Assembly (NCBI GenBank): GCA_943704415.1
Contig: CALSCO010001301.1
Location: forward strand, 1-21,428
Origin: Parvularia atlantis
Taxonomy: Eukaryota > Opisthokonta > Rotosphaerida
DNA length: 21,428 bases
Direction of reading: 5' to 3'
The position numbers and the translations under genes were made by a program. Positions 696 through 19,900 of the stretch are shown here, piece after piece. The notes under the pieces are model-generated. The model saw only the letters and a program-made list of their open reading frames with translations, ran no database searches and was not told the origin of the DNA. The number at the start of each line of letters is the position of its first letter. Position 1 is the first letter of the stretch.

Positions 696-3600
696 TCACA
701 TGCGCGCGCCCTTGCGCAGCGACGCCTTGGCCGCGCGCTTGTGCTTGCGCCCGGCCTGGCTGCCACGGTGCGCCGCGCTGAGGATGTTGCGCACCGTGCC
801 CTCGTTCTTGGCGTGCTTCCTGCCGCGCGTGCCCCGCTGATGAGCGCGCCGTCGCAGGACAGCAGGCGCGCGCGCACCGCTTGCTCAGGCGGTTCGGGTC
901 CAGCGGCAGGTACGCGTACGGGTCCGGCTTGTCCTTGCGCTTGATGTCGCCGCCGGCCTTCTGTGGTTCCGTGCGGGTGCGCGCATTAGTGTGCGCCGAT
1001 CAACGTCTGCGAACGACTCCGTGCCTTGGCGCGGTACTCTTCGCCCGTGACCGCCTTCGGCCCGGACGGCTTTGGCCGCCGCAGCTGCTTGCGGAAAGGT
1101 AGGCGCGGCTCATACACGACCTTAGATCCGCCGGCGACGCTGCGCTTGCCGGAGGCCGACGAGCGCCGGCTGCGCAGCGCGGTGAGTGAGCCCCCGAGGC
1201 GGCCGTGCGCAGGTACACCTCTTGCTGTCGCCGTCGACGTCCATCGCGTCGTCCTCGCCGTCCTCGTCGTCGTAGTCGTCCTCGTTCATGAACAGGCTCG
1301 ACGCTGCCGTGCCCTTGGCCCCGCGCGATCTGCGCCCGCAGCATCAGCACCCGGAGCACGGCGGCACGAGGCGGCACACGCACTTTTTCGAGGCAGGCGC
1401 AGTGTCGTCGTCCTCGGCCTGCTCCGCCACAACCCGGTCGAAGCGGCTACCGCCCGTCTGTCGCCGTCGCGTTGTCGCCGCCTTGCCGCGCTGGCGTTCC
1501 TCCTTGTACTCGCGCTCATCCTCGTCGTCGTCGTCGCGGAAGATCAGCCGCCCGTCCGGGGCGATCGCGACCTCCTCCTGCCGCCGCTTGCTGGTCGCGC
1601 TCACTGACCCGCTACTGTTGCTGCTGCGCGACGGCTTTGTACCTGCACAGGCCACTGATGTGAGCGATGCTCAGACGCGGTCGGGCACGCACTTGACACG
1701 CGCGAGGCGACGCGCTGGTCCAGCAGGTCCAGCGGCTCGTCGCCGTCCTCCTCGTCGTCCGCGTGACCCGTGCTCTCGCGGATCCACGTGCCCTGTCGGC
1801 CGTCGCGCCGCTCAGCGTGCGGCCCGTCGTGGTGACAGGCCGTGCCGCACCTTCTTGCTCCGCGCGCCGACGCCGCGGCTCAGTCCCAGCTGCTCGCGCA
1901 GGATGCGGGGCAGCTCCTCGTCCTCGTTGTCGCTCTCCTCGCTCTCTTCGGTCTGCTCCGTGTGCTTGGTGAAGCGCGTGAGCTTGGTCGACGCCTTGGA
2001 CACCTGCGGCGGCCGCACAGTGAGCACAGCAGCACCGCGGACGCTGCCCGCACCTTGGTTGACGCCACAGACGCGCGGTCGTCCTTGGCGGCTGCGCGTG
2101 GGTGGATCAGCGTGACACCGCATTGACCAAGCGCGGCGCACGGCCCGCCTCGTCCGCGCCCTCGGCCTTCTTGTTCTTGCTGCGGTCGGCCTGCTTGCGC
2201 AGGTTGTTGATGAACTTGGTCTGCTCCTCTGGCACGAGCTCAGCGACCATCTCGAAGCCAAACTTGCGGATGAGGCGCTGCATGCACGAACGGTCACGCA
2301 CGCTCGCGCTGCGCACGCAGGTAGCACGCACCTGGAAGATGAACTTGAGGTTCGACCGGAAGCGCAGCCGGTGCGGCGCCGTGCCGACAAAGAGGCCCTC
2401 GACCTGGCGCGCGCGGCCGTCAGCAGCGCGGGAGCGGACAGCTGCATGCGCACAATCTCTGGCAGGAACGGCCCGAGCTCCTCGTCGGCGAGGCACGCGA
2501 GCGCCACCTTGACAAAGCCGATCGCTGCCTGCGCTTGCGCACTTTGAGCGCGTGCACCAGCGAGCCATGCGGGACGCCGCACTTTGACGACCTCGCGCAC
2601 GGGCGAGCGCAGCAGCAGCAGAACCATCTTGACGAGCGCGTCGACCTCGTCGGGGCTGAGCTGGGCTGCAAGCGCGCGCATCGCGTGAGCTCACGCGATG
2701 CTCACAACGCAGCCGCGTGCTCGCGCGCACCGTGGAACTCAAAAAGCAGGCGTGCGAGCGTTGAGACCGACGCACTGACCATGTGCGGCGTCGTCCCACC
2801 AAGCCCAGCGAGCACCATCTTGATCAGCTCCGACAGCTTGTCTGCACCCAGCGAGGTGAGTCTGTCGCGGCGCACTTTGCAACCCAGACGCACCGAGGCC
2901 GTGCATGTGCCGCGCGATGAGGATGAGCAGGTCGAAGGCGGCCTGGCGGGCCTTCTCGTTGATCTCCTTCGTGCACAGCATAACCTGTGCGCGGCGTCAG
3001 CGCGGCGCCACACCACTTTGCGCACGAGGCGGCATGCCTCGGGCAGCATCGCCGGCACGTGCTCGATGCACTCGGCGCCGTCGAGCGAGCCCACGACAAG
3101 ACCCAGCAGGCGCAGACGCTCGCGCTTGCCGGCTGTGTCGATCAGCGTCTCGTCGAGCAGCGCGGGCAGCAGCGCAGCAAAGGACGCGCTCTCTGCAACG
3201 CTGGCGCATGAGACGGCTGCGCGCTCCAGGCGACACGCGCGCACCGTCCATCGTCTGTGGCGCGCCGTCCGCCTGGCCAGCGGCGACCGCGGCGACGATG
3301 CGCGCCACCGCCGTGCCGTGCAGCTCGCACAGGCTGAACAGGCACCGGTACGCCTTCTTCTGCACAACGGCGTCCTCGTGCCGCAGCAGTGGAAAGACGG
3401 CGCGCGTGAGCACGAGCCAGTTGGACTCGTCCAGCGGCGGCACAAGCGCAAGCGCGAGGTCGAGCATCGTGTGCAGCTGCGCGCACGCGACGTCAGTGGT
3501 GCCGCCACCGTGTGTCTGCCTCGCACCTGCGCGAGCTTCTGCTGGGCCTGCTCGGTCGGCTTGCCAGACGCCTGCTCGTCCATCGCGTCGGCCGTGGTGG

Positions 3601-6432
3601 CAGTGGCCTCAAGCAGGCGCGTGACGATCGTCCGGAAGAAGCCGTTGGTGCTCTGTGGGCGTGTTGCGTGAGCCACTGCCGCTCAGGAGCACGCCCAGCT
3701 ATGCACACCGCCTTGTCGGCGATCGCCGCATACGTGCGGATCGCGTCGAGCACAAACGCGCGACGGTCGGCCGGCAGCGAGCCAAAGACGTTGAACAGGA
3801 TCGGCATGAAGTTCTTCGCGAAGCCGGCCACGACGGCGCGAGCTCTGCCGGACTCACGCGTAAGGGCTGGTCAGGCCGCGCGGGCAGGGCGCGCACGGCG
3901 TGTTGGCATGCGGCCCTCGGCACGTCGAGTCAATCAAGTTGACGAGCGCGGTGCAGATCGAGGGCCGTGCGTCGGGCTCGCTTGTAAGTGCCGTGCCGAG
4001 GTCGCGCGCGATCGTGCTGCGCGCTCGGCCCGATTAGCAGCGCAGCGACCAGTGCGCGGGCCGACGCACGGGAACGCAGCCGCAGCGTCAGGCGGGCCGT
4101 GGCAGTACGTCGGCAGCAACGCGTACACCTGCAGCACCAGCGTCTGCAGCTGCTTCTTTTCGACCGCCCCGGCCGCCTTGGCCTGCGCGGCCTGGACGCG
4201 TTTGCGTGTGAGCTGGCGTGATTGCCGTGTGCACGCGCCCGCACGCACCTTCATCATGCGGATGAGCGGCATAAAGTACGAACCGAAGAAGGTCAGCGGC
4301 GAGCCGCGCGGAACCGCGTCGCGCAGGAAGGCGATCAGCCACGGCCGCGCGACAGTGGGCGCCTTGGCGAGCACGTTCGGCGGCAAGACGCGCACAAACG
4401 CCTCGATACCGACCGCGCGGCCCACGGCCTTGATGCACGCAACGAGCGCACCGTTGTACGCGGCCGCGCCAGTCGCTGCAACGGTGTGAAATCAGCGCAC
4501 GGCTGGCGGTGTACGCGTGGCACGAACCATCAAACGACGCGCGGTAGATGTCGTCCACCAGCAGCACGACGCCGTCGAGCGCGGGCGAGGCGCGCGGGCC
4601 CAGCGCCTCGAACGCTGCAGCGACGACGGGGATGGTCGCCTCCCAGTGCGCCTGGTACGTGTACGACAGGCACCGCTCGAGGCTGCGGCGCGCGCGCTTG
4701 AGCATGCCGGTGCGTATCGGCGCGCAACGCGGACCTCTTCTGCAGCGCGCTGAGCACGTCCGCGAGCGTCTTGGGGCTAAGGCCGGCGGACGTCTGCACG
4801 TGGCCCAGCACGTGCTGACACAGGAACTGCAGGTGGCGCACGGTCAGTTCTGCGCGCTCGTTCGCACAGGCGACAGGCACGTGCCTTGAGGCACAGCGAC
4901 GCGGCAGTGATCGATGCGGCCTTGTCTGACGCAAACAACGGGATGATAAGCCCAATTGCGGCCGGCGTCGTGTCGAGCGCGGCATTGACGTCGAGCCTGC
5001 ACGCGGCATCAGCTTGCGACGCACACACACACACACACGCGGCAGTGCGACGCACGACGCTAGCAGCCGGTAGCCCTCGGACACGGCCGCGAGCCACGCG
5101 CCGAGCACCTGCACGTCGTTCTTGTCCGGGCGCACCTCGCGCAGCTTCTGCACGCGCTGTCAGCCGCTGCGAGCGCCGACAAGCGCAGGTGAGACGCACG
5201 GCCAGCAGCATCGTCAGCGTCGGCACAGTCAGCGGCGTCACGGGCATCGGCGGCGCCGCGTGTGAATGGGGCGCAGGCTCGCCGGGCTCGTCGTCCTCGG
5301 TCGTCGCGAGTGTGGCCGGTGCAGCCGCGCGCTCGCCGTCGTCGCTGGCCGGCAGCGGGCCCGCCAGACGCCCAAACGTGTGTGCAAACGTCTCGAAGAT
5401 CCAGAACGACATGTGCGTGTGGCCGAGGCCGCTCAGCCGCACCAGCTGCTTAATCATCGCCTCCTGCGCCTGCCGCCGCGGTCAGCACTCCATCGCTGCC
5501 CGGCAACGCGTGTGCGCACCGGCTGCGGCAGGCTCACAAGCGTCTCCTTCAGGAACACGATCGCGTGCAGCGCCGCGTCGAGCTCGTGCTTGGCCGCCGA
5601 CGTCGAGCGCTGCAGCGCTTGCTGGCACACTCGCGCTGGCGCCGACCGAAACCGTTAGCGCCAACGCCGCCACCAGCACCAGCGCACCGGCTTCGGCGAG
5701 CGCAACGGTGCTGGCCGGCTGCGGCGAGGCAAACAGCGTGCGCATGCACTCGTGCGCCTTCTTGCGGATCTGCGCCCGACGCGCTCTTCAGTAGGCAAGC
5801 AGTCACGCCGCGCAGCCACCTTGGGCCGCGGGTCAAGCACAAATGTCGCGATCCACCGCAGGCGCTCGGTCGTCGTCGCCAGCGCCCACGTCGACGCGTC
5901 CTGCGCCTTGAGCGCCGCGCACAGGCAGTCGAGCGCCTGCAATGCTGTCAGCAGCGCGCAGCAACAGCGCGGCGTAGGCCCGTCAGCGCACCGAGCGCAC
6001 GACCGTCTGCACATCGCCGCGCGTCTGCAGCGCGTTCGCCACCGTCGTCGCCAGCTCGCCAAACTTGGCGCGCAGCACTGCAGGCGGCAGGCGCGGCACA
6101 ACGGCCGCCAGCAGCTGGAACGCGGCCGGCACGACCTCGGGCTTCTGCTGCTCGCCCCCGATCTGTGCACGCACCGCATCAACGCCGTGCCCCGGCACAC
6201 ACGATCGCACGCACCACGGTCATCAGCGCCCCAAAGTACGCCGCGGGGCTGCGCGCCACGCCTTTGCCGTCGATCAGCGCCTCAATCGCCGCCAGCAGCG
6301 CGACCATCTGCGCCCGCGCCCGCGCCGCTCAGCTCGCTCACGGGCGATCGTTTTCGCGCGCACACGCACCGCCCGGTGCGACTCGAGCTGCGAGTTGGCC
6401 AGCCGCCGCACAAACGCAAACGGCTCGTCCAT
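696..6432 (-). CDS. RRP12: RRP12-like ribosomal RNA processing protein
   Basis: HEAT/ARM-repeat protein that in other eukaryotes binds pre-ribosomes in the nucleolus and helps export of both subunits. My model has 32 exons and gives 1348 residues (the family is about 1230-1300): 6370-6432, 6215-6307, 5992-6162, 5820-5936, 5688-5769, 5520-5635, 5200-5469, 5056-5147, 4885-4996, 4735-4826, 4528-4682, 4249-4475, 4070-4191, 3924-4016, 3709-3844, 3527-3652, 3245-3476, 3026-3192, 2894-2984, 2731-2841, 2583-2665, 2454-2528, 2332-2403, 2142-2277, 2054-2091, 1851-2003, 1693-1792, 1384-1642, 1219-1329, 1025-1169, 878-960, 696-819. Diagnostic pieces are the NUC173 region (FVRVLPPNVL...WLIAFLRDAVP; LLPTYCHGPPD), LVMLCTKEINEKAR, RLIRKFGFEMV, and the C-terminal EEYRAKKAGGDIKRKDKPDPYA split by an intron. 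The tail is acidic, then strongly basic. Two introns (4827-4884, 961-1024) are GC-AG. A few acceptor choices (for example 1643, 5636) are ambiguous by in-frame steps. The ATG at 6432 matches the family's N-terminal helix. Confidence 0.9.
2678..2701. repeat. 24-bp perfect palindrome in an RRP12 intron
   Basis: The 12 bases GCATCGCGTGAG are followed at once by their exact reverse complement. The palindrome lies inside the intron 2666-2730 of RRP12 and contains a CTCAC that could serve as the branch site. In RNA it could fold into a hairpin of about ten base pairs. No function is known. Confidence 0.9.
5022..5038. repeat. (CA)n microsatellite in an RRP12 intron
   Basis: A run of about eight CA units sits inside intron 4997-5055 of RRP12. 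On the coding strand it reads as a GT run between the donor and the branch site. Confidence 0.85.
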
Positions 6433-6758
6433 CGGCTGCACAGTGCGGATGAACGCCACGTGGCGCGGACGGGTGGCTCTAAGGGCTCTGTCACTAAAGT
6501 ATGGCGGTGGTAGTGTGACGGTCGCCAGCGTCAGCTCGGCCTCTGACGTGCGCGCGCCAGACGCGACCGCGCCGGCACGGCCACCCACCCTCCCACACAC
6601 ACACACACACCGCTCCCCGCCGCGCGCTGGCCGCGTGCGCCTGCCCCGCGAGCGCTTGACCAACATGCACACACCCCCAACCCGCCGACCCCTTATCAAT
6701 GCTGCGCGCGTGCCGGGTCACCGATGGTGCTGGCGCGCCCGCCCGCACGACGCCGCAC
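6433..6758. other. Spacer between RRP12 start and the truncated PCYT2 segment
   Basis: 326 bases with no coding similarity that I can recognise on either strand. It should hold the RRP12 promoter and leader (minus strand). A CACGTG box is at 6457-6462, 25 bases upstream of the RRP12 start codon, and a (CA)n run of 18 bases is at 6594-6611. If PCYT2 were intact, about 300 further codons would be expected here, and they are not present. The sequence therefore either marks a real deletion or fusion point or a fault in the assembly. Confidence 0.6.
6457..6462. promoter_or_regulatory. CACGTG box upstream of RRP12
   Basis: A palindromic E-box is centred about 28 bases before the RRP12 start codon. 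In animals and some unicellular relatives such boxes are bound by Myc/Max-type bHLH-zip factors that control ribosome biogenesis genes; in yeasts Cbf1 binds the same core. Assignment here is by sequence and position only, and the motif is also frequent in GC-rich coding sequence. Confidence 0.4.
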
Positions 6759-7222
6759 CGTTCCTGGTCGCGCATGACCGTCGGGCCCTTGTTACGCAGG
6801 ATCTCCTCGTCCGAGTGCACGCCGACGAGCAGAACGTCGCCCATGGCCCGAGCCTGCGCACGCCCCGCACGCGACGTCAGCACGCAGCCGCGCCACCACA
6901 CGCGGTCGCGCGCGCCTGGCGCATCGCGTTGGCATGACCGAAGTGCATGCAGTCCCAGCAGCCGTCGACCCTGCGCGGCAGGGCACGCTCAGCGCCCACG
7001 CCGCCGGCCGCCGCGTCAGCAACGCACCACACGCTGATGTCCCAGTGAGGTGGTGGGTGATTCGCGGGGGGCGGCGACGGCGGCGACGTCAGCACGGCAC
7101 GGCACGGCACGGCACGGCACGGCACGGCAGCGCGCAGCAGCCGCGGTGCGCCTCCCACAAGCGCGCGCGCCCACCCCGCGCACGAGGACGCGCCCGACGC
7201 ACCGCACGGGACGCCGCTCCAT
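6759..7222 (-). CDS. PCYT2: Ethanolamine-phosphate cytidylyltransferase, 5' part only
   Basis: PCYT2/ECT1 makes CDP-ethanolamine in the Kennedy pathway of phosphatidylethanolamine synthesis. Only the start of the first cytidylyltransferase domain is present. Modelled exons are 7203-7222 (MERRPVR, ending in phase 2), 7028-7033, 6916-6970 and 6759-6853. They spell RVWVDGCWDCMHFGHANAM (with the HxGH nucleotide-binding motif), then RQARAMGDVLLVGVHSDEE and ILRNKGPTVMRDQER, all textbook family sequence. The 6-base exon 7028-7033 is needed to supply the conserved VW. Intron 6854-6915 has a GC-AG pair. Similarity stops close to 6759, about 60 residues into a protein that normally exceeds 350, and RRP12 begins 326 bases further on. 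So this is a broken copy, a misassembly, or an exon set spliced in an unseen way. It diverges from the DsbD-like gene, with 35 bp between the start codons. Confidence 0.7.
7092..7129. repeat. Pentanucleotide microsatellite (GCACG)n
   Basis: Seven full GCACG units plus a partial one in tandem, inside the first modelled intron of the PCYT2 segment (7034-7202). The repeat explains why this intron is about three times longer than its neighbours. Confidence 0.92.
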
Positions 7223-7257
7223 CCGCTAATGGGAGGTGAATTGTGACGCGCGGCCAA
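7223..7257. promoter_or_regulatory. 35-bp divergent start region
   Basis: The start codons of PCYT2 (minus, 7222) and the DsbD-like gene (plus, 7258) are separated by only 35 bases. Leaders and promoter elements must overlap each other or the coding regions. No TATA-like element is seen. Confidence 0.45.
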
Positions 7258-8745
7258 ATGCTTGACTCGTTGGTGAACCTCGGCGCGGGCGTGCTCGCGG
7301 CGGGCTCGCCGTGCGTCGTGGGTGCGCGCCGTGCTGCGTGCCCTGTGCGCACGTGATGCTCACGCGCCGCGCAGTGCTCGTGCCGCTCACCCTGTTCCGC
7401 TTCCGCGGGCAGGACGTCGGGTGGCCGTTTGTCGCGTTCGTCCTCGGGTTCCTCGTGACCTATGCCGTGCGTGTTCGCGCGTGCGCGTGGGCGGCTACGC
7501 CTGGGCGGCCCAACGCCGTGCGCAGTGCTTCGCGCTGGTCGCAAGCCGGCTGCTCGTCTCGGCCGTGCAGAACGGCTTGCGTGCGGGGCTCGGTGGCGTC
7601 TTCAGTCTCACGGGTGCGTCCGGACCGCGTGCTCGCCCAGCGTGTCTCAGCCGCGGCGCAGGCATGCTGTGCTTCACGGGCTTCGTCAACCCGCTCAACT
7701 TGCCTGGCGTGAGCAACCCGTTCGCAGTCGGCGGCGTCTTTGCGCTGATCGTCTCGGTTAACCCGTGGTGCGTGCCGTGCACGCTTTGTCGGCTCTGAGG
7801 CGCTCACGAGATCGGCAGCACGCTGCCTTTCCTCGGCATGGTGCTGTCGGTGCACTCGGGTGCGCGTGCGTTCGTGGCCATCCTCGAGTTTGCCGTGGGG
7901 CTCATCACGCCGGCCGTGCTGTTTGTGCTCTTCGGCAAGGTGCGGCCGGCCGCACCCGCACCGCAACGCGCACACCGACACGCTCGCGCACCAGCTGTCG
8001 CTGTCCATGTTCAAGCAGCACGCGCAGCTGCTCGTCGTGCTCAACTCGCTCATGAACGGCGTGCTCATCCTGACCGGCCTGTATCTGATCAGTCAGGTGC
8101 AATCGCTCACTGCGACGCTCACTGCGACGCGTTTGCGGCTCACGCGTGCGCGCGCGGCGGCAGGTGAAGATGTTCTCGACCGTGGATGTGCTCACGGCCG
8201 GCACGATCGTGCTCGCGATGCTGCAGCTGCTGTGCGTGACGACGTTCCGGTGGGCGTCGTGGGCGACGGCGACGCTGCTGCTGACGACCATGTGCGTGCC
8301 GCTGCTGATGTACAGCCTGATGCGGTGCGCACACACGCGTGCGCGCACGTCGTGCCTAGCCTGACGCGCGCACGCGCAAGGCACGCGGGCGAGCTGCACG
8401 CCAACTTTGACAGCGCCATGAGCACGCAAAAGTGCCCCACGAACGAGAACGACGCGACGCCCACCAGCCTGTGCGGTGCGGTCCGAGCGCGGACCGCACC
8501 GCACGCGCGCCGCTCACCGCGCCGCACCGGCCGCAGACGCGTGCCGCAGCTTCTCGTACATGTTCATGGGCGCAGTGCTGCTCGTGTGCGTGCACGTGTA
8601 CCTGCTGCGCGCGCTGCAGCGCGACGAGCGCGCCGGCACGAGCAGCATGGTCCAGCCGACCTCGCCCGTCGACCGCTACGTGCTCCTGCTCAAGCAGCAG
8701 GGGAGGAGACAGAAGCTGCTTTTGCAGGAGGAGCTGCCGTCATGA
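7258..8745 (+). CDS. DsbD/CcdA-like polytopic membrane protein
   Basis: Nine exons (7258-7321, 7375-7466, 7526-7613, 7662-7767, 7819-7939, 7995-8096, 8164-8324, 8381-8475, 8537-8745) join to 345 residues. The first 190 residues match the plan of the DsbD/CcdA transmembrane domain. A first helix carries GSPC (Cys19). Another carries VNPCTLPFLGMVL (Cys117). The loop GARAFVAILEFAVGLITPA follows, then a helix ending NGVLILTGLYLIS. In bacteria and plastids this fold passes electrons across a membrane through the two cysteines, for example to support cytochrome c maturation. About three more helices follow (near 200-217, 225-244 and 283-301), and the loop before the last holds Cys263 and a CDAC pair (Cys276, Cys279). 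The last 40 residues are charged and probably face the cytosol or matrix. Intron 7614-7661 is 48 bp and lacks a stop, so reading through it would add 16 residues. Family assignment is by motif and topology; function and compartment are inferred. Confidence 0.72.
8471..8504. repeat. Perfect 14-bp inverted repeat over a 5' splice site
   Basis: GTGCGGTGCGGTCC (8471-8484) is matched by its exact reverse complement at 8491-8504, leaving a six-base loop. The predicted donor of the intron 8476-8536 starts at 8476, inside the left arm. In the transcript the exon-intron boundary would be base-paired within this stem. Confidence 0.88.
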
Positions 8746-8959
8746 GTGTGCTTGTACGAGGCTGATCGCCGACCCGCGCGAGCGACACAGAGGCCACACG
8801 TGCAAAGGGGGACCCGAGACAGAAAAGAGGCGTTAGGAGGGCGGAGGGGAGGGGAGGAAACACCGCAGCAGCTGGAAGATTTGGAGGGGTCGCTGATGGA
8901 TGTACAGGGCAACTTGGATGGCACTTGAGAGGAGAGGTCGGAGGGTTTTCGGTGCGGGG
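8746..8959. other. Convergent 3' intergenic region with a G-rich tract
   Basis: 214 bases between the stop codons of the DsbD-like gene and CCR4, expected to hold both 3' untranslated ends. At 8836-8857 there are several closely spaced G runs on the plus strand, which could form a G-quadruplex and perhaps act as a pause or termination signal. No AATAAA-type polyadenylation hexamer is seen on either strand. Nothing coding was recognised. Confidence 0.5.
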
Positions 8960-11635
8960 TCATGCGCCCTTGTACGCGCCCCCGAAGCCCATGCGCGCAC
9001 CGTTGGCGACGGCGGACGACTGCGGGCGGCGCGCGGTGAGTGGTGTGTGCCGCCGACGGCCAACGGGACGCGCACCTGCCCGACGTTGACCGCAAACTCG
9101 GCCACGAGCGCGATGTGGTCCGACGGGAAGTGCGCGCTCGGGAAGCCCGGCTGCTTGGCCGCGTACTCTGGTGCGAGCGGGCCGAGCACGCCCGTCACCG
9201 TGAGCCGGTCGTTCGTGTACCAGATGTAGTCGATCGTGCCCACAAACGTCGGCGTCCTGGGGGCGCGATGCGACGCATCATCAGCCAAGCCGCATGGTCG
9301 CAGCCAAGCACGCACTTGTTGGTGAACGGCAGCTCGCCGACCTCCTGGTATGCCGACGCCAGCGGAAAGCGGTGCTGCAGGTCCGCGTCGGTGTACGGGC
9401 CGTAGCTGTGCCCTGGCGATGCGCACGGGCGTCGTCAGCGGATCGCCCCGCTGGCAAGCGCGCGCGTGCCGTCAAAGTCGCTGTGGGCTGACTTGGGCAG
9501 CTTGCCGCGCTGCATGAACTGGTAGACGGGCGAGGACGGGAGCGAATTGAAGTCGCCGCAGATGACCATGGGCAGCGACTCGCGCCCGTCGCGCCCGCCA
9601 AACGCGCCGCGCCGTGCCAGGCGCGTGAGCTCGTCCATCAGCAGCGCTGTCTGCACAAGCTTGACGTCGGCGTACTGCGGGTCCCAGGTCATGTGTGGGT
9701 TGGCGATCACGATCGTCTCGTTTGTGAGCAAGTGCCTGGGGCGCAGGCTGAGCGTGGGCGTGTGCCGGCGCTGCGACGAGGCTGCGCACCGCAGCGCGAC
9801 GACCAGCGCGATGTTGTCCTTGGGCATGATCCGGTTGAAGTAGTCCGGGCACGAGCGCAGCTCGGGCCGGACCGACGCCTGCTGGAACTCGATCAAGAAG
9901 TCGTTCAGGAACGAGAACTTGGCCGACTTGAAGAAGATGGCGCAGCCGTCGACCGAGCGCGCGTCGTCTTCGGTCATCGTCTTGGAGCGCGACTTTGGCC
10001 TGATGCCCGGTGCTGAGTGAGTGGCGCGCGACCCCCAATAGCGCGCCCCCCNNNNNNNNNNNNNNNNNNNNNNNNNNNNNNNNNNNNNNNNNNNNNNNNN
10101 NNNNNNNNCCCCCCCCCCCCCCCCCCCGGCCGCACCTGAAGATGCCCTTGTACTGCCCGTGCCGCCCGAGCTCGGCCTGGAAAAAGTCAAAGTAGTGGCT
10201 TGTCTCGACTTCCTGCGTCACGGGCACGCACGGGCGCCCGCTCAGCGCCGCCCATCGCTCGACCGGCAGCCCTCTGCGTACCTGCAGGCACACGATGTCC
10301 GTGTTGTTGTGCAGGATCTCGTGCACGATCAGGTCTTTCCTGTAGTCCCAGGCAAGCGCCCACGACGGGCAGTAGCCGTAGAGCTGTGGCGTGGCGTACT
10401 TGTCGCAGAGGATGTTCATGCAAAACACGGTGAACACTGCGCGGCCGTCAGCGCAGCCCCTGCCGCATGCCGCATGCCGCACGTCGCGCGAGCGTGAACG
10501 CACCGGCCTGCTCGGCGCTGTTCTCGGCCAGCTGAATCCACGGGCGTTCGGGCGGGGGCGCGGGTGCTGTCCGCCGTGTCAGGCTGCAGCCACGTAAGCG
10601 CACGAAGCGGACGCACCGGGTGCGTTGTCGCGCAGGTACTGCACGATCGTCTGGGCCGACGAGTCCTGCGCGATTGTGTGAGCGGCGGCCGTGGCGCACG
10701 CAAGGCGCACCTTGAGCGACAGCAGCGGCTCCTGCAGCGGGTTGCCCTCAAGGCCGAGCACCTCGAGCTGGAACAGCATGCCGACCTCCCAGGGCAGGAC
10801 AGCGATCTGGTTGTGGTACGCGAGCAGCTGCGCGTGGTCGGGGCGGTTTGGTGAGGTGCGCGCGCACGCTGGGCCGGCTGCGCACCTCGCGCAGCTGCAG
10901 GCACATGCTGATCTCGGGCGGGAGCGTGCGCAGGCGGTTGCTGCTCACGTCGAGCTGCACGAGCGCGCGCAGGGACCCGATGGCCGCGGGCAGGGCGACG
11001 AGCTGCGGCGGGCGCGTCAGGGCGGCCCGCTGCCGTGCCGCGCGCGCGCGTGGGAGCGTGCCTGGTTGTTGTTGAGCCGTAGCTGCGTCAGGAACGAGTA
11101 GCGGAACAGCGCCGGGCTGAGGTTGCGCAGGGTCGCGTTGCTGCGGCGCGAGGCGATGTGAGCCATTGGCTGCTACCGCTGTGCGGCCGCACCTCATGTC
11201 GATGCCGGACCAGCGCGCGCTGGTCCCGTTGCCCGTCGTGGTAGTGGTCCGGGCCGCGTCGTCGCTGCCCTCTCGCAAGCCGCCTCTCCTGCGCAGCGGC
11301 GGGGCGGCCGCATGAGCCGTGGGCCGCAGACTGTCCGTCGTCGCACCCGTCGCCGTAGACGGGGCGGTCGCGCGCGTCCGCCTTGGAGGGCGACCGCTGG
11401 GCTACTGCTGCAGCCGCGGCGGCCGCGGCGGCTGCGGCGGCGCCTGGCCCTGCGGCGCCTGGCCCGTTGCCGGCGGGCGAGCCTGCGCCCGACCCGCTGC
11501 GGCGCGTGCGGTCAGCCGGCAGCAACCCGAGCAGGCTCCCCTCGCCCCGCGCGAGACGCACCTACTGGTGGTCGCGAGGGCCATCGCCGACGGTGTGTAC
11601 GGCGCGGCCGTGACGGCCAGGGTGCTGTTGGACAT
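8960..11635 (-). CDS. CCR4: CCR4 deadenylase (LRR plus endonuclease/exonuclease/phosphatase domain)
   Basis: Catalytic subunit of CCR4-NOT, which shortens mRNA poly(A) tails in the cytoplasm. Fifteen exons (11562-11635, 11347-11496, 11193-11288, 11062-11140, 10886-11002, 10711-10827, 10617-10665, 10483-10566, 10282-10436, 10136-10212, 9790-9999, 9470-9735, 9316-9412, 9076-9256, 8960-9019) give 603 residues. A low-complexity N terminus with a polyalanine run is followed by leucine-rich repeats (about 107-211: NLSPALFRYSFLTQLRLNNN, LDVSSNRLRTLPPEI, VLGLEGNPL) and the nuclease (about 256-584). Likely active-site residues are Asn263 (MNILCDKYAT), Glu308 (CLQEVE), His417 (NPHMTWDP), Asp464 and Asn466 (CGDFNS), Asp533 (GTIDYIWY), and Asp570 and His571 (SDHIAL). 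The usual NTHxHW loop reads NPHMTW here. Introns 11003-11061 and 9413-9469 are GC-AG. The intron 10000-10135 contains the assembly gap, so no coding bases appear lost. Confidence 0.95.
10046..10127. other. Assembly gap flanked by C homopolymer
   Basis: 57 unknown bases (10052-10108) with six C on the left and nineteen C on the right. The gap lies wholly inside a CCR4 intron (10000-10135). On the coding strand the donor is followed at once by a long G run. The true length of the run is unknown, and the gap probably reflects sequencing failure through it. Confidence 0.95.
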
Positions 11636-11899
11636 GCCGGGGACGCCCGTCGCGGCTTCGAAGGGGGCTTTGCGACGCGGGTGCGCGGCGGGCGGGGATG
11701 TCGGGCTGCGTGCGTGCGATCGGGCGGGCGGGCGCGCGCGCGCGTGAGCGTCGCGGGCGGTACGTTGCGCGGCGTGCAGGGCGCGCGGCACAGCCCTAGG
11801 CGAGAGGGCGAGCAGCAAGCAGAGCGCGACGCAACAGACTGAGCGAGCCGCGCCCGTTCCGGCCAGCAATTGTGGTCAGCCTCACGACATCGTCTCTCA
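11636..11899. promoter_or_regulatory. Region upstream of CCR4 and downstream of the PH gene
   Basis: 264 bases between the PH-gene stop and the CCR4 start, both genes on the minus strand. It should hold the PH gene's 3' end and the CCR4 promoter and leader. A stretch of alternating GC (around 11730-11746) and several GGGC units are visible. I see no clear coding segment and no TATA element. Confidence 0.4.
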
Positions 11900-13171
11900 T
11901 CACTCAGCGAGCGCGGCGCCCTCGACCATGCCCAGCTCGACGATGAGCCGCTCCATGTAGGCGTCGGTCGTAAACGTCGACTCGGCACGCGGTGCGCCGT
12001 CCGCGATGTCGGCAGGCGCCGGCTGCGTCGCGGGCACGGCGGGCATCGGCCGGCGCGCGGCACTGCACGAGCGGTCAGCGGCATCTGGCGTCGCGCAGCA
12101 CGGTGGTGGCGCACCGTGGTGGCGACGGCGTGCCCGGCGCACCACCCGAGACGGCGCTGAGCGACTCGACAGACCCGCCGGCCGAGCGCATGCGCGGCGC
12201 GCGCACAAAGAGCGCGGCGTTGACGGGCTGCAGCACGGCGTCGTCGGCCGGCGGCGCCGCGACCGACTCCATCATCTGCTTGAGCGTCCACCCGTGCGTG
12301 ACAAAGGCGTTGACGGCGGCGCACAGCGGCAGGTGCTTGTCGCAGTACCTGGTCGCGGACGTGAGTAGCCCGCAAGCCGGTCGGTCGCACGCACACACCA
12401 CCCGCGCTCGTCTACGCGCTTCTTGTCGTGCGTGGCGCCGTGCCCGAGCGTCGCGAGCAACCGCGGCGAGACGCGCCCGGACACGCGCACGCCGCGGTTG
12501 GCAAAGCACTCGACGATGGCATACTGCTGAGCGATCGCCTGGCGCCGCGCGCTCAGCACGGCCGCGCGGCGAAGGCAGCATGCCACGTGCCTTGAACGAC
12601 GAGTGCCGCCCAGACGAGATCGCAGTCTGGATCGTGCGCATCCAGTCGTCCATCTCGGCCTCGGACGCCGCCGACAGGTACCACGTGCGCGCGTTGTCCT
12701 CGCCTGCGTCGGCACGCGTCGGCACGCGGTGAGGCCGTGGGATACTGGCCGGTCGCACGCCGCACCGCGCAGCAGGAAGACGTGCTTCTGCGAGGGCTTG
12801 TCGGCCGTGCGCTCGACCTTGGTGATGTCCTCGAGGTAGATCGTCCCCAGCGGCGCCGCGTCCTGCTCGCGTCGGCGTGAGCCACGGGGGCGTGTGTGCC
12901 GGCACCGCGCGGCGCGCACGTCGGGCGTCTTCATGTAGACGATGGCGTTGTTAGACAGCACGAACCTGGCGAGACGCGCGCCTGGTGTCAACAAACGCGC
13001 GCAGACGACACACGCCCGCACCAGCGCTTGCGCCAGTTCTTGACGTTTGTCCCGCCTGGCCGGCCCGGTGCGCGCGCGCACGGCAGCACGCGTCAGCAGG
13101 CAGGACGGGGCAGAGCAGCACAGCGCAGGCCCACCCTCCTTGACGAGCCAGCCCGCCTTTGACGCAGACAT
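11900..13171 (-). CDS. Pleckstrin homology (PH) domain protein
   Basis: Eight exons (13135-13171, 13022-13055, 12920-12965, 12766-12862, 12591-12703, 12402-12538, 12115-12348, 11900-12062) give 286 residues. Residues about 5-104 are a PH domain: AGWLVKEGG, then NVKNWRKRWFVLSNN, a basic strand pair typical of phosphoinositide binders. PLGTIYLEDI, HVFLLRG and the closing helix with the near-invariant Trp (EMDDWMRTIQTAI) follow. Such proteins are usually recruited to membranes by phosphoinositides or partner proteins. The remaining 180 residues (IVECFANRG..., YCDKHLPLCAAVNAFVTHGW, a Ser/Pro/Ala-rich linker, and a final TFTTDAYMERLIVELGM helix) match nothing I recognise. Intron 12539-12590 is GC-AG, and the frame requires it. 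The acceptor before 12862 could shift by one codon. Start codons of this gene and the CCDC43-like gene are 28 bp apart. Confidence 0.82.
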
Positions 13172-13199
13172 TGCGCTCGTCTCGCCCGCGAGGAACCCG
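13172..13199. promoter_or_regulatory. 28-bp divergent start region
   Basis: Only 28 bases separate the ATG of the PH gene (minus) from the ATG of the CCDC43-like gene (plus). If both starts are right, at least one transcript must begin with an almost absent leader, or the promoters sit within the opposite gene's first exon. Confidence 0.5.
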
Positions 13200-14022
13200 A
13201 TGGCGGCGAAGGTGCGCTGTCACACTCCTCGCGCCGGCCCTCACGCTCTCGCAGAGCGTCGTCGTGGCGGCGGTCGCGGCGGTCGCGCCCGACGTCGGCT
13301 TCGTCGTGACGCGCCTGCGCGACGTGGGCGTGACCGACGGCGCGATCGCCGACTACGTGCGCGGCCTGCTCGAGGACGTGCGCCGCTGTCCGGTCCACGG
13401 CACGCGTCTGACGCGCGCGCTCGCGCAGGAGACGATGGACGAGGCCGACAAGCGCGACGCCGTGCGCGAGTTTCTCGACGCGGCTGGATCGAGTGAGGGC
13501 GCGGGTGACGCGTTCCTGGACGACCTCTTTGGGCGGCACAACGCGGCCGTGGCCGAGGCGCTCAACGCGACCGAGCGCGCGCGGGAGGCGGCGTGGCTCG
13601 CGGCTAAGGAGGCCGAGCGCACGGCGCTGCAGGCGGACACGCTGGCCGACGGTGGGAGCAGCAGCAGCGGCGGCGGCGGCAGCAGCAGCGCGGGCCGGCC
13701 GCAAATGACGCTGGCCGAGCGGCGCCAGCGCGAGGCACTGCTGGAGCAGTACGGGTACGACGCGGACGACGTGGTCGAGACGGCCGACGGCGAAGTCGAG
13801 ATCCTGTACAAGGACCGGTCGGGCGCGGGCGCGGCCGACATGACGGGGCTGGGCGAGAACCGGAACGCGCAGGTGGTGGCGGACAAGGAGGCGCGCAAGC
13901 GTGCCGAGGCCAAGGACCAGCACCAGCGGCAGCTGCTGCGGCAGAAGGAGCTCGACCTGCGCGAGAAGGAGCGCAAGGAGAAGGCGCGCAAGCGCACGGA
14001 GAAGCAGGAGCGGCACCGGTGA
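13200..14022 (+). CDS. CCDC43: CCDC43-like coiled-coil protein
   Basis: Two exons (13200-13211 and 13255-14022) give 259 residues, close to the 224 of human CCDC43. The first exon encodes only MAAK. The N-terminal part (FVVTRLRDVGVTDGAIADYV, then RGLLEDV) matches the conserved helical region of CCDC43. A Gly/Ser linker follows, then the family block ERRQREALLEQYGYDADD. The C-terminal coiled coil is rich in Lys, Glu and Arg (NRNAQVVADKEARKRAEAKD to the final KRTEKQERHR). The protein's role is poorly defined in any organism. Its single 43-bp intron contrasts with the intron-dense neighbours. The downstream glycosyltransferase starts 38 bp after its stop in the same direction. Confidence 0.8.
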
Positions 14023-14060
14023 AGCGGCAGCTGTATACAGGACACACTTACGTTCGGATC

Positions 14061-15152
14061 ATGAACCGCATTGTAGTGACAGCGGGCGCGCTGCTCGCGC
14101 TGTGCGTCGTGGCCGTGCTGCTGGCGACGCTGCGGGCGACAGAGCGCGAGAGCGCGGCCGCGGTCGAGGCGCAGGCGCTGGCGCTGTCGGCGGCCGAGCG
14201 GCAGCTGCTGCACGAGGTGATGCGCGAGCGCGACGAGGACGCGGCGCACGCGGCGCACACCTCAACGACGCACATGACGCCCAGGGCACGGCCGCGCGCG
14301 TACTTTGCGCTGGCGGCGGGGCGCGACCGCTGGTTTGAGTGCCTGCGGCTGGCGTACGGGCTGCAGCAGTACGGCGCGCGGCACGCGTTCGTGTGCGGCA
14401 CGCTCGAGCCCGGCAGCGCCCTGAGCGCAGCCGAGGCGGCGGCGGCGGCGGCGCTCAACATGACCTTCGCGCACTGGACGCCGTTCTGGTCGCCGGCGAC
14501 GCGCTGGGGCGGGTGGGATGGCGTGCGCGGCAACTGGCGTGTGTCGTGGGAGAAGCTCAACGCGCTGCGGATGCACGAGTACGACGCGCTCGTGCACCTC
14601 GACACGGACGTGGTGCTCACGCGCGCCGCCGACGAGCTGTTCGACACGGTCAGCGACGACTACCCGTTCGCGCAGACCTTTGGTCATGACTCGTGCGGGA
14701 CACCGTACGGCCTCAACGGCGGCGTGTTTGTGGTGCGGCCCCTGCCGAGCGTGCACGAGCGCCTCGTCGGCTTTCTCGACCGCCCGTGCGAGGGCCGGAC
14801 CAACCCACACTGCGACTGGCTCTTTGGCGGCTCGGACCAGACCGTGCTTGCCCTGACCATGGGCGAGCTGCCGCACGTGGCCGACGCGCTCTGGGGCCGC
14901 GGTCGGCGCATGACCGTGCTCAGCCACAACTACAACATGTGGGCGCGCGCGTGCACCTGCGACCACGCGCACGAGACCGCCCGCAGCGCCGTCATCTACC
15001 ACCTCATCAGCCCAAAGCCCTGGCAGGCCAGAGCCGACCCGCCCTGCGCTGCGCCGCTCTTCGACATCTACAAGCGCCAGGCCGACGGCGTGCGCGACTG
15101 GCTCAAGGCGCACCACCCGGCCGCCGCGGCCACCTTCCCGCTCTCGACCTAG
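14061..15152 (+). CDS. GT8-like type II membrane glycosyltransferase
   Basis: Intronless, 363 residues. A short cytoplasmic start (MNR) and one hydrophobic helix (about residues 4-24) form a signal anchor, so the enzyme probably faces the Golgi or ER lumen. The catalytic region has GT8 (glycogenin-like) features: YFALAAGRDRWFECLRLAYG, then WEKLNALRMHEYDALVHL leading to the metal-binding DTD at 181-183. LNGGVFVVRPLPS, GGSDQTVLAL and SHNYNMWARAC follow. NMT in LNMTF is a possible N-glycosylation site. Donor and acceptor sugars cannot be read from the sequence. An in-frame GTG further upstream overlaps the previous stop; I prefer the ATG at 14061 because it opens the signal anchor. The stop is TAG. 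The 38-bp gap to CCDC43 suggests a shared transcript or a promoter inside the upstream gene. Confidence 0.82.
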   Translation: MNRIVVTAGALLALCVVAVLLATLRATERESAAAVEAQALALSAAERQLLHEVMRERDEDAAHAAHTSTTHMTPRARPRAYFALAAGRDRWFECLRLAYGLQQYGARHAFVCGTLEPGSALSAAEAAAAAALNMTFAHWTPFWSPATRWGGWDGVRGNWRVSWEKLNALRMHEYDALVHLDTDVVLTRAADELFDTVSDDYPFAQTFGHDSCGTPYGLNGGVFVVRPLPSVHERLVGFLDRPCEGRTNPHCDWLFGGSDQTVLALTMGELPHVADALWGRGRRMTVLSHNYNMWARACTCDHAHETARSAVIYHLISPKPWQARADPPCAAPLFDIYKRQADGVRDWLKAHHPAAAATFPLST

Positions 15153-15205
15153 CCCGGTGGCGCTGTGTGCGTGCGCGTGTACACAAAGGAAAATGACAAA
15201 CTCGC

Positions 15206-18138
15206 TCAGCGCCGGTCTGTCTTGCCCATTTTGCGCTTGCCCGCGAAGAGGTGCTTGGGCATGCGCGTGGGGATGCGCCGGTCCGACTCGCCCGCGCGCG
15301 CGAGCAAGTTGGACTTGCGCTGCGTCGTCTTGTGCATCTTGCGCGCCTTGGCGACTTGCTGCCGAGGCGCACGCGCGCGGGCGAGCGGCCGTCAGCCTGT
15401 GCGAGCATGCGCGCGCGCGACGGCGAACCTGCTCGCTGCCGAGACCAGACTGGCTCCGGCTGCGCGACGCGCCGCGCGACCGGGACGCGCCGCCATCCGT
15501 GTCCATCCCCTCGCCGTCGTCGCCGCCGTCGTCGCCGCCGTCCTCGTCCCCGCGCCCGCGCGACACTGACCTCCCGCGCGTGCGCGACGCCGCCTACACC
15601 ACCGCACGTCAGCCGCGCGCACACGCCAGCGGCCCCCCGCTCGCTCGCCACACCCGCCGCCGGATTTGTGCGATCGCGTCGTCCGACGCGCCGAGCTCCT
15701 GCAGGTGCTTCTCGAGCGCCTCGCCGGCGTCCTGCCCGGCCGCCCAGTGAGCGCATGGGCAGGTCGCACGCCACCGCAGCGTGCCTTGGACGTCACGCGG
15801 CGCGGCAGCGGCGGCCGATTGCGCAGCGAGAAGCGCTTGAGGTGGCTCGACTGCGCCGCGACAAGCTTGCGCTTACGCAGCGCCTCGGCAACGGCCTTCT
15901 TACCCTCTGCAGCGGCGGATGAGCGCACGCTGCGAGCAGGCGTGCGGCCGAGCGCGCACCCTTGCTCGCCTTGCGCAGCGACGCGTCCTTGGTCTGCGCC
16001 GCGCGGCTCGCCAGGTTGCCGCCCGCGTCCGTGTCCTGCGCGCCCGTGAGCCGCACACTCGAAAGCACCGTACCGGGCCCCACCATGCCGTCCTCGCCCT
16101 CGTCGCCGTCCTCCACGCCGTCCTCCTCGTCGTCAGACTCGACGTTGTTGTAAAAGCCCGCGGCGATCAGGCGCTGGCGCCGCACAGGTCACCCTCGTGC
16201 ACAAACGAGCCGCCAACTGCGCGCACCTCCTCCTCCTGCTCGAGCGCCAGCAGCTTCTGCTCGATGTCGGGGTCGACAAAGTCGATCACGTTCTTGCCGT
16301 TCCAGATCTCGGGCACTGCGTCGTACTTCCAGCCGTCGTCACGCAGCTGGTACATTTCTGCGCGGCACAACGCGATGCAAGTAAGAGCGCGCCCGTGGTG
16401 GCGCACGCGTGGGGTGCGCGTACTCTTCAGGTCGATGTTGTAGCGTCCGGGCCCGCCGTTCTCAGCCTCGAGATCGCGCTGGAGCTTGCGCCGCGCGGGG
16501 TCGTCCTTGTTGTACTTGGGCAGGACAGCAACCTGAGTGTGGCCGCGTCAGAGCAGACACAGCAGTGCGCGCGGCCGCACCGCTGCAGGGATGGCCGGCG
16601 GGCGCGCCTTGCCGTCGCGCGGGACGGGCTGGGCGAGGTGGAGCTTGTTGAGCACATCGCCGACCTTCTTGTTGCGCATCTTCATCTCGACGCGCGTCGA
16701 CAGCAGCTTGTCGCACGCCTGATACGCGCGGCGGCGCGGCCGGTGAGCAGCCGCTGCGGTGGCACTCGCGCACGAGCACGCACCACTTGCTTGACGTGCA
16801 TCACACCCTCATCCGTCATTGAGCTGGACTCGACCAGCGTCGCGCCATCGTTGACGATTGTTTGGATGAGCTGCGTCGCGCGCGGGCGCTGTGAGCACGC
16901 GTGGCAAGGCGCGCAAGGGGGCACGGCGCGCGCACCTGCTTGTTCTCATCCGACAGGTCGTCGTAGCGCATGAGGTCGACCTTGTTGAGCACGAGCACGA
17001 GCGGCTTGTTGGCAAACAGCGGCTTGATGCTGTTGTAAAGGCCGACCTGTTCGTGCGCCCGACAGCGTGAGCACGCGGTGTGTGGTTGCGTGCGCGACGT
17101 GTGCCTGCGCCGCGATCGAGTAGCCGCACTGCTCCGACAGGTCGACAAAGTAGAGCACGCAGGAGCGCAGGTGTGCGAGCGCGGTGATCGACTGCATCTC
17201 GATCGTGTTGCCTGGCCGGCGCGCCGGCGTCTGAGCGGCGCACCGCGCACGCACGGGCGGCACACACGGTCCTCCAGCGGATGGTCGAGGATGCCCGGCG
17301 TGTCGATCACCTGCCAGCGCAGGTACTTGTAGTCCATGTGGCCGACAAAGAGCGACTTGGTCGTGAACGCGTACGGCTGCACGTCGACGTTGGCGCGCGT
17401 GACCTGCTCCCGCACGGTCAGCAAAGTGCACAGCGGACGAGCTGTCGCCGCTGCGCGCCTTGTTCATGAACGACGACTTGCCCACGTTCGGGAAGCCCGT
17501 GATGAGCAGCGTGCGCGTGTTGGGGTCGATCGACGGCAGGCGCGACAGGTGCTGGCGGACCTGCTCGAGGTACGCGAGCGTGTCCTTCTGGCGCAGCATG
17601 CATGTGACCATGCTGCGCGGTGGCGGGCGGCGGGGTCGGCGCCGAGCCGCGGGGCGCCGAGCGGACGGGGCGCACCGGCCGAGGCACGCGCGCTTGAGCG
17701 TCTTGCAGCGGAAGAGCGAGTCGCCGTACTTGAGCAGCTTGAGGTAGTCCTTGGCGATGTTGTCGATCTGGTGCTTGGCCGCGTTGATCTGGCCCAGCGC
17801 GAGCTTGTAGTGGTCGCGGTCGTACAGCACGTTCATGAGGTCGCCGTAGAACGGGTGTATGTCCTGCGTGCGCGTGCTTAGTCGTGCGGCGGCAGCGGCA
17901 CGCGCGGCGCACGCACGTCCAGCTTGGGGAAGTCGGCCAGCAGCTGCGAGAGCTTCTCGTCGAACGACTGCTGCGTAAACTTGCACTTGCGCATGTAGAA
18001 CGAGCGGATGCGCGTGATCGGGTACGACTTGTGGATCTCGGTCGGGGTCTTGCGCTGCGTCTTGCTTAGGACGACGTCGACAAAGTCCTTGGCCTGCGGC
18101 ACGACCGCGATCCGCTTGAAGTTGTACAGGCTCGTCAT
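15206..18138 (-). CDS. NOG1: Nucleolar GTP-binding protein NOG1
   Basis: GTPase of 60S pre-ribosomes, acting in the nucleolus and released before export. Fifteen exons (17917-18138, 17676-17863, 17459-17612, 17268-17403, 17105-17211, 16936-17046, 16787-16870, 16581-16718, 16424-16532, 16227-16357, 15960-16173, 15785-15906, 15654-15731, 15429-15593, 15206-15358) give 703 residues, slightly over the usual 630-650. The family N terminus ([20 protein letters not shown]) is followed by the G1 loop GFPNVGKS (176-183), [12 protein letters not shown] as switch region, DTPG (222-225) and NKVD (290-293). Then come [32 protein letters not shown], an acidic stretch, and the hallmark C terminus [15 protein letters not shown]. 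An insert near 599-653 mixes RS dipeptides with a Gly/Asp-rich stretch. Introns 17404-17458, 17047-17104 and 15732-15784 are GC-AG; all three restore perfectly conserved sequence. Confidence 0.96.
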
Positions 18139-18293: not shown

Positions 18294-19900
18294 TCACCCC
18301 GTGTACGTCCGCACGAGCCCCATCACGGCGTCCACCCGCGCCGCCAGCTGCGTCATCTGGTCCTTGAGCGCCTGGCCCATCGTCGTCGTCGCAGTCGACG
18401 TCGTCGTGGGCGTGGCCGCTGCGCCCGCCTCGGCCGCCTCGGGCTCTGCGTCCGTGCTGACCACGCGCCGGAGCGCGCCGCGCACGCGCTCGGTCTGCAG
18501 CGCCGGTGCAGGTGTAGGTGCAGGTGCAGGTGCAAGTGCTGGTGCGGGTGCAGGCGCGGCTTCGGGAGCGGCGACGGGTGCGGGCGCGGGCGCGGGCGCG
18601 GGCGCTGGTTCGACGAGCGGCTCGGTCGGCGCGAGCGGCGCGGCAAAGGGCGTGTTGAGGTCGGCGATTTTGGCGCCGGGCACGAGCGCGAGCAGCGCCC
18701 GCCCGTTCGGCAGCTTGAGCAGCATGCGCGCCACGCCCGTGCCGATGTAGAGCGGCTCGGTGTGGTCAAGCACGCGCTGCGACACGACGATGTGCGCGGC
18801 CGGCGAGAACACGGCCGTGTTGAGCACGTCGATTTGCGCGGCCTGCACGACGGTCAGGGCACGCGCCGGGCCGCAGCGGCGGCGGGGAGCGCACCAGCAT
18901 CTCATTGCGCGAGTACTTGCGCACGGGCGCGCCAATGGCGTCGGCGACGGCGAACGGGTTGATCAGGTCCGCGCCGTTGCTGAGCGCGAGCACGGGCGTG
19001 CGCTGCTCGGTGACGAAGATCAGGTCCTTGAGCACGCACTCGACCGGCACGCGCAGCCGGGCCGCGCGCCGCGCCACCGCCATCTGTGCGCCCGCCGTGA
19101 CCACGAGCGACATGCCCTCGACCGCGCTCAGCGCCTCGGCCAGGCGCGGCACAAGCTCGACGATCTCGGCGCGCTGCTCGGCCGTGAGCTGCGCCACAGG
19201 CACCTCGAGCGAGCTCGCGCCCGCGGGCAGGTGCAGCAACGCCAGGCCGTTGGGCTCGCGGATGGCCTGCATGTACAGCTCGGCCGGGGTGAGGTCGCGT
19301 GTGAGGCCTGCGCCAGCGCGCTCGTGTCAGCCGGGCCCCCCAAGCGCACGTCGACGCCGCGCACGCACACTTGGGGTAGTGCATGCCGTTGATCGTCTCA
19401 CCGCACATCGACCGCAGCACCTTGGCCTCAAAGTCGCGGTCGTCCACGTTGCCGTTCAGACGCGACTCGAGGTTGGGGCACTGGAGCAGGTACAGCAGGC
19501 CGTTGACAAAGTGCTCGACGCGGTAGCTGGTCGAGAAGTCGCTCGTGAGCATCGAGAAGCAGACCCGCCCGTTGTCGATGTTGGGGTGGTACACCTTCTG
19601 CTGACACGTCACCTTGGGCGCGGCGTTTGGGTACGACTGCGCGGCGGCGGCCCGGCCGGTTGCGTCAGCCTTGCGTGCAGCGGGATGGAGGGTGGCGGGC
19701 GCGCGCACCTGGGGTAGCACCATTAGGAAGCGGAACGCACCGCCCGCGTACGGGCCCGACTTTGGCGTGAGCAGGACGCGCAGGCGGAACGGCGAGTCGC
19801 CCTGCAGCGCGATCGTGGCCTCGTCGTCGAAGACCGACTTCTTGTTGATCTCGCTCAGCTCGCGGAAGAGCCGCTTGACGGCGTCGCCGGCCTCGGACAT
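18294..19900 (-). CDS. UBC12-like E2 conjugating enzyme with long C-terminal extension
   Basis: Four exons (19709-19900, 19369-19636, 18895-19307, 18294-18842) give 473 residues. Residues 1-153 form a UBC fold: [15 protein letters not shown], the catalytic Cys90 nine residues after His81 of HPN, and [17 protein letters not shown], which resembles the end of UBC12/UBE2M, the NEDD8 E2. The active-site cysteine is present, so catalysis is possible. Residues 154-about 362 are an unknown domain with repeated elements ([49 protein letters not shown]). A Pro/Ala linker and a final Thr-rich and helical segment follow. E2 enzymes with extensions of this size exist (class III/IV), but I do not recognise this one. 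The ATG at 19900 is chosen; the open frame extends further upstream only through a TTG. The upstream region is shared with the RCHY1-like gene. Confidence 0.8.

Follow-up and report, generated by a model that had tools for sequence, protein, structure and literature searches.

GC-AG introns form 0.98% of introns in animals, 1.01% in fungi and 1.49% in plants (PMC7072748). The reported fraction is 39.6% in Aureococcus anophagefferens (genome 69.5% GC), 22.2% in Micromonas pusilla (65.9% GC) and 7.7% in Chlorella. On the other hand, it is only 2.7% in Micromonas RCC299 at 64.1% GC (PMC3033335), and thus the link with GC content is not strict. The 5' ends of U1 are unchanged in Aureococcus and in both Micromonas strains (PMC3033335). 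In Emiliania huxleyi (65% GC), GC-AG was reported for 56% of 241 manually defined junctions and for 61% in Cufflinks transcripts; nine GC junctions were verified by RT-PCR and Sanger sequencing, and the automatic JGI models are described as having the opposite ratio (PMC4028052).

The Micromonas donors are of the form AG/GTGCGT (here and below, the slash marks the cut) with the branch motif NCTGAC, and GC donors there are linked to introners, occurring in 53% of one introner class (PMC3879977). GC donors are generally nearer to the consensus at the remaining positions (PMC2490688), and cooperative U5/U6 contacts were proposed to offset C at +2 (PMC11732430). In donors of the U6/METTL16 type, A at +4 is usual (PMC10581693).

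Genes of the window

The window (the whole stretch of 21,428 nucleotides) is gene-dense eukaryotic nuclear DNA of about 70% GC with plentiful short introns. In 2-kb segments of it the GC content is 66.6-73.3%, high in the manner of Emiliania and Aureococcus. The recognised genes encode a Dabb-domain protein, RRP12, an ethanolamine-phosphate cytidylyltransferase fragment, CCR4, a PH-domain protein, NOG1, a ubiquitin-conjugating-enzyme-like protein and a CHY/RING zinc-finger protein. No tRNA genes were found in the window, and no Rfam family, including snRNAs and U1, reached its gathering score there. Five genes contain candidate GC-AG introns.

15206..18138, minus strand: NOG1 (nucleolar GTP-binding protein 1), E 4.2e-216; 15 introns modelled, three of them GC
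8960..11635, minus strand: CCR4 deadenylase (LRR and nuclease), E 1.5e-116; two GC introns; N-terminal exons uncertain
696..6438, minus strand: RRP12-like gene, E 7.1e-121; 31 introns modelled, two of them GC
11900..13171, minus strand: PH-domain protein gene, PF00169, E 2.9e-24; one GC intron
6759..7050, minus strand: 5' part of ethanolamine-phosphate cytidylyltransferase; one GC intron; 5' limit approximate

A 300-residue block of NOG1 is 74.0%, 71.7% and 63.3% identical to three solved chains, which, by their entry codes, we take to be those of human, S. pombe and Chaetomium, respectively. The top-scoring solved chains are presumably from yeast for CCR4 and from human for RRP12, likewise judging by entry codes. 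Because the library comprises solved structures only, similarity to the NOG1, CCR4 and RRP12 chains does not place the organism. A search for a NOG1 relative in viral contigs gave none.

The cytidylyltransferase match (6759-7050, minus strand) is limited to residues 13-61 of the solved enzyme, and the start of RRP12 at about 6430 leaves little room for the remainder. This piece could be either a truncated gene or an assembly collapse. The plus-strand region 7258-8745 encodes a nine-exon protein with many hydrophobic stretches and no match in Pfam; it looks CcdA/DsbD-like. An ORF without introns at 14061-15152, also on the plus strand, contains the motifs HLDTDVV and NGGVFVVRP and again has no Pfam match; its product looks glycosyltransferase-like. 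The minus-strand gene at 18294-19900 encodes a ubiquitin-conjugating-enzyme domain (PF00179) followed by a long C-terminal extension with an Ala/Pro repeat. An assembly gap of 57 N at 10052-10108, flanked by C runs at both ends, lies within the GT-AG intron 10000-10135 of CCR4.

Candidate GC-AG introns

An earlier note on this DNA listed nine introns as beginning with GC. Indeed, all nine intervals start with GC and end with AG, and all are on the minus strand. They were considered in a homology test blind to splice sites and in a gene HMM.

In the homology test, every frame-keeping boundary within 24 nt was tried for 59 modelled introns of four genes, and the spliced peptide was scored against solved homologues. 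The references were aligned stretches of three out of four chains for NOG1, two out of five for CCR4, two for RRP12 and one for the cytidylyltransferase; as the RRP12 alignments are truncated, introns of this gene below 3.7 kb mostly have little or no reference, except 961 and 820. The HMM was trained on GT-only introns (n=93), and then GC, GA and GG donors were allowed at equal priors of 1, 5, 10 or 30%. It was run with strong priors and hand-set gene regions. The costs listed below are those of forbidding GC near the site, and they range from 0.6 to 8.1 nats despite the GC prior of 1%.

17404..17458, minus strand: NOG1 intron, AAG/gcgcg...gcag; joins MNK/VTRANVD, ungapped against solved NOG1; homology score 270, the best; no GT-AG option; cost 7.3 nats
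17047..17104, minus strand: NOG1 intron, CAG/gcaca...acag; joins SIAAQ/VGLYNS, ungapped against solved NOG1; homology score 220 for GC against 209 for GT; coding score nearly indifferent (0.6 nats)
15732..15784, minus strand: intron in the C-terminal part of NOG1, AAG/gcacg...gcag; exact in the HMM; homology scores 69 for GC, 64 for GT and 74 for GG in poorly conserved sequence; cost 1.8 nats
11003..11061, minus strand: intron in the leucine-rich part of CCR4, CAG/gcacg...gcag; joins NNNQ/LVALP, ungapped; homology score 129, the best; no GT-AG option; cost 3.8 nats
9413..9469, minus strand: intron in the nuclease part of CCR4, ACG/gcacg...ccag; rival boundary 9406-9465, likewise GC; homology score 90 for GC against 71 for GT, a single non-AG pair being higher (93); 7.4 nats lost when nearby GC donors are forbidden; with regard to intron retention, the sole one of the nine with a length divisible by three
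6854..6915, minus strand: intron in the cytidylyltransferase fragment, CAG/gcgcg...gcag; joins RQ/ARAMGD, ungapped; homology score 162, the best; no GT-AG option; cost 1.1 nats
4827..4884, minus strand: intron in the HEAT region of RRP12, AAG/gcacg...gcag; cost 8.1 nats; homology weak and poorly conserved, with scores of 36 for the modelled junction, 38 for the best GC, 42 for GA and no GT option
961..1024, minus strand: intron at the C-terminus of RRP12, AAG/gcacg...acag; joins YRAK/KAGGDIKRK, ungapped; homology score 131, the best; no GT-AG option; cost 5.8 nats
12539..12590, minus strand: intron right after the PH domain, AAG/gcacg...ccag; exact in the HMM; cost 7.0 nats; covered by no homologue among the best 60 of 90 matches listed, frame and coding score being its only support

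Among the eight introns with a homologue, GC-AG is the best of all pairs with an AG acceptor in six (961, 6854, 9413, 11003, 17047, 17404), and an in-frame GT-AG option is absent within 24 nt in five (961, 4827, 6854, 11003, 17404). At 9413, 17047 and 15732, the GT option scores below GC. Homology does not decide the junction at 15732 or 4827, where GG and GA, respectively, score higher. The same criterion supports 14 GT introns, and thus the test can return GT as well as GC. Another 15 introns score at least 60 without a unique best junction; these are 15732, one artefact of the assembly gap and 13 GT introns. Ties with other acceptors are frequent because a junction slid by a few bases yields the same or an equal-scoring peptide.

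At priors of 1, 5, 10 and 30%, the HMM called, respectively, 9, 10, 10 and 12 GC introns, 0, 0, 1 and 2 GA introns, and 1, 1, 1 and 2 GG introns. It used GC at eight of the claimed loci at the 1% prior and at all nine at 5-30%. Seven of the nine introns were recovered at exact coordinates under every prior. The intron at 9413 was recovered under every prior as the GC intron 9406-9465, with the donor four bases off. The one at 17047 appeared as the GC intron 17047-17095 at priors of 5-30% and was not GC at 1%. Outside the nine loci, there were 1, 1, 1 and 3 GC calls at the four priors. GC is thus in excess over GA and GG in the HMM although the three had equal priors.

Some calls were rejected. 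The non-GT calls at 18495-18599 (GC at priors of 1-10%, in Ala/Pro low complexity), 11432-11494, 6641-6690 and 10013-10121 were discarded on manual inspection because of low complexity, an N run or an isolated position, and so were the higher-prior calls at 1458-1499, 6702-6763, 20620-20669, 12349-12419, 18495-18555 and 18560-18618. The last three are GC calls at the 30% prior and, like 18495-18599, were not counted. The call at 10013-10121 is actually the GT intron 10000-10135 containing the assembly gap. A first gene HMM, in which the intron cost was too low, produced one minus-strand model across the window with 86 GC introns out of 206, and it was discarded.

The rate of GC-AG introns in this one 21-kb window is 9/88, or 10.2% (CI 4.8-18.5%). 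This agrees with the earlier estimate of about 10%, and the rate is far above the level of about 1% usual in animals, fungi and plants, as had also been claimed. The 88 introns are nine GC introns, 77 GT introns and two hand-completed GT introns (10000-10135 and 6971-7027). The 77 are what remains of 82 modelled GT introns after removal of five dubious ones (6543-6610, 6702-6758, 11265-11346, 11497-11561, 13056-13134); donor counts agree when all 82 are kept. The probability of at least nine GC introns among 88 is 2.8e-7 at a rate of 1% and 0.0013 at 3%. For the six best introns alone (at least six of 85), it is 2.2e-4 and 0.043, respectively.

In conserved context (score at least 60) in NOG1, CCR4, RRP12 and the cytidylyltransferase piece, GC introns are 7/34, compared with 2/54 elsewhere (p 0.025). 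Thus they are perhaps under-called where homology cannot force them, and the true rate may be above 10%. This is a hint only, because the split was picked after the data had been seen. None of the 19 plus-strand introns modelled is GC, a number small enough for chance.

Donor context

Position +3 is A in 7/9 GC donors and in 2/77 GT donors (p 2.3e-7), G being present there in 72 of the 77. The exon ends in AG at 8/9 GC and 22/77 GT donors (p 7e-4), and in C/A-AG at 8/9 and 17/77 (p 1.5e-4). The GC donor without exon AG is that at 9413, whose boundary is also ambiguous. C at +4 occurs in 9/9 GC and 70/77 GT donors, and A in none of either group (0/9 and 0/77). G at +5 is found in 8/9 and 73/77, respectively. 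T at +6 does not differ (2/9 and 24/77). The GT donors of the window are nearly all GTGCG.

The earlier note had correctly given AG before the cut in eight of the nine introns and donors reading gcac or gcgc (seven and two, respectively). However, it derived the GC donors from gtgcg by a T-to-C change. Such a change leads to GCGCG, which fits two of the nine, whereas seven read GCA.

The HMM matrix rewards G at +3, and so A at this position in the GC donors does not come from the model. The context of the GT donors partly mirrors the trained matrix; with a flat donor seed, GT training gave +3 A in 3/93, +4 C in 75/93 and +4 A in 1/93. Among homology-supported introns only, +3 A is present in 4/6 GC and 2/14 GT donors, and exon AG in 5/6 and 5/14.

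The match to the canonical U1 5' end outside +2 has a median of 13 in GC donors and 12 in GT donors (p 0.008). The total match is 13 against 14 (p 0.89), that is, GC donors are not stronger overall, and the predicted U1 duplex has -3.2 kcal/mol in GC and -4.4 kcal/mol in GT donors (p 0.053). As neither total match nor duplex energy is better in GC donors, the compensation is partial.

The length of the GC introns is 52-64 nt, and the median for GT introns is 54. Branch-site-like YTNAB motifs are found in 9/9 GC introns, 14-25 nt before the acceptor, and in 65/77 GT introns, at 8-45 nt. The heptamer AGGCACG has ten copies in the window, about as many as expected by chance (7.2). By hand comparison, five of them belong to the nine GC donors, another overlaps an acceptor in a plus-strand gene, and the other four lie opposite genes, in antisense; apart from these donors, none of the ten copies was seen in the sense strand of exons.

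Motifs of U12-type introns are ATCC at +3 to +6 and the CCTTRAC branch site. Neither was present in any of the nine introns (0/9 for both), and the U12 type was rejected. The published forms of these motifs are ATATCC and CCTTAAC (PMC3033335).

Possible mechanism and known systems

Very probably, these are ordinary introns of the major spliceosome, about one tenth of the 5' splice sites having C at +2 and better pairing in the rest of the donor. The U2-type spliceosome would accept C at +2, and hardly A or G, if the remaining donor pairs better. The compensated donor would have exon AG and usually A at +3 (AG/GCACG), replacing the usual N/GTGCG; C at +2 would be offset in part by exon AG, through pairing with U1 and U5 loop 1, and by the A at +3. 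GC mutational pressure might supply the C. We infer splicing of the RNA as drawn, pairing with U1 (and U5 loop 1/U6) as the compensator, and the origin of the C from GC pressure. A at +3 runs against the GC bias and cannot be supplied by GC pressure, and therefore we read it as a trace of selection.

A considerably less probable reading is that there are two coupled donor solutions, N/GTGCG and AG/GCACG, with A taking the place of G at +3 if +2 is C, and +4 nearly fixed as C. If so, U1 or U6 recognition would here no longer favour A at +4, and A at +3 would be a near-requirement for GC donors, a sharper rule than that found for published GC-AG introns.

The earlier note suggested that a GC-rich genome had loosened the +2 position. 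The link with GC content is in line with published cases, without being strict. However, the looseness is not borne out: the HMM hardly ever called GA or GG donors (0-2 calls each), and thus +2 is not generally loose, only the T-to-C change being clearly tolerated. For the same reason we consider it unlikely that recognition of +2 is relaxed by a changed U1 snRNA or U1 protein, although the high rate and the GC-rich genome would fit this possibility, and for Aureococcus and Micromonas, modified RNA or U1 proteins have been suggested by Iwata and Gotoh (PMC3033335). The GC donors contain compensating bases, and wherever the U1 5' end was checked in published cases, it proved normal (PMC3033335). 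The canonical U1 AUACUUACCUG, if present, would favour compensation over a changed U1. A modelling artefact, with nearby GT donors being true and GC starts resulting from hand-forced frames, is very unlikely. Forbidding GC is cheapest, by coding score, at 17047, 6854 and 15732, some path is always found by the GT-only model, and at 17047 the HMM does without GC under the 1% prior. However, homology settles the matter at 17047 and 6854, and GT-only paths demand an extra intron at 961, shifted sites, or dropping of the intron altogether at 11003 and 6854. Relative to a GC prior of 1%, the GT-only model loses in total 14.0 nats in RRP12, 9.7 nats in NOG1, 7.0 nats for the PH-domain protein and 1.1 nats for the cytidylyltransferase fragment; in CCR4 the loss is 28.7 nats, above what the two claimed sites account for.

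Recent introner-like insertion, as in Micromonas, is extremely improbable as the source of the GC introns. The GTGCG donor core and a CTGAC-type branch motif are indeed shared with Micromonas, and the GC intron 6854 has 15 identical nucleotides with the GT intron 3477 (30.2 bits, above nine of ten shuffle maxima). However, the highest of the shuffle maxima (32.2 bits) exceeds even this match, other pairs do not exceed 26.3 bits, and comparison of 91 introns yielded no sequence family. C-to-U RNA editing or base errors, with the donors being GU in the RNA or in the true genome, can scarcely be credited. There is no direct support, although DNA alone would not reveal editing; both leave the bias to +3 A and exon AG unexplained, and NOG1 aligns nearly end to end with its homologues, so that the local sequence looks sound.

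This is probably one more of the GC-rich genomes in which GC-AG introns are numerous, and gene finders restricted to GT donors will disrupt its conserved genes. The coupling of +2, +3 and the exon provides a testable picture of how GC donors remain functional in a GC-rich genome with U1 unaltered, a question that was still an enigma to Iwata and Gotoh (PMC3033335). The abundance of GC-AG introns and its link with GC content are already in print, as is the GTGCG donor, and thus the present case is another member. The sharp coupling of +2 and +3 at a nearly fixed +4 C may be new, judging from nine introns only. Among the matches listed, the term GC-AG was not met in the chytrid/Holomycota literature.

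The U2-type GC-AG introns of mammals and other organisms (MAG/GCAAGT) share with those described here the C at +2, the AG acceptor, exon AG and a closer consensus elsewhere. However, the mammalian-type introns have a rate of about 1% rather than about 10%, and A at +4, where all nine introns here have C. The A at +4 of U6/METTL16-type donors (PMC10581693) is missing in the GT donors of the window, and the Micromonas core is the same as the window's. The GA-AG introns of Eurytemora and Oikopleura (PMC7072748) are similar in that a single non-GT donor is raised, and there too an upstream AG and a downstream A are conserved; however, that donor is GA, for which a U1 variant was proposed, and GA was called 0-2 times here. 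In Globodera, a raised level of GC/AG introns was likewise obtained by manual curation (3.46%, consensus CAGG[T/C]AAGT), but the genome is 38% GC, the rate is lower, and GT and GC donors are alike in local context. The distance from the branch-like motif to the acceptor is 14-25 nt here and 43-52 nt in Micromonas, and, unlike the Micromonas introners, the GC introns here, 52-64 nt in length, form no repeat family. On the other hand, the GTGCG donor core and an NCTGAC-like branch motif are common to Micromonas and this window, and high GC content is shared with Emiliania, Aureococcus, Micromonas pusilla and Chlorella, in which GC-AG introns make up from 7.7% to 61%.
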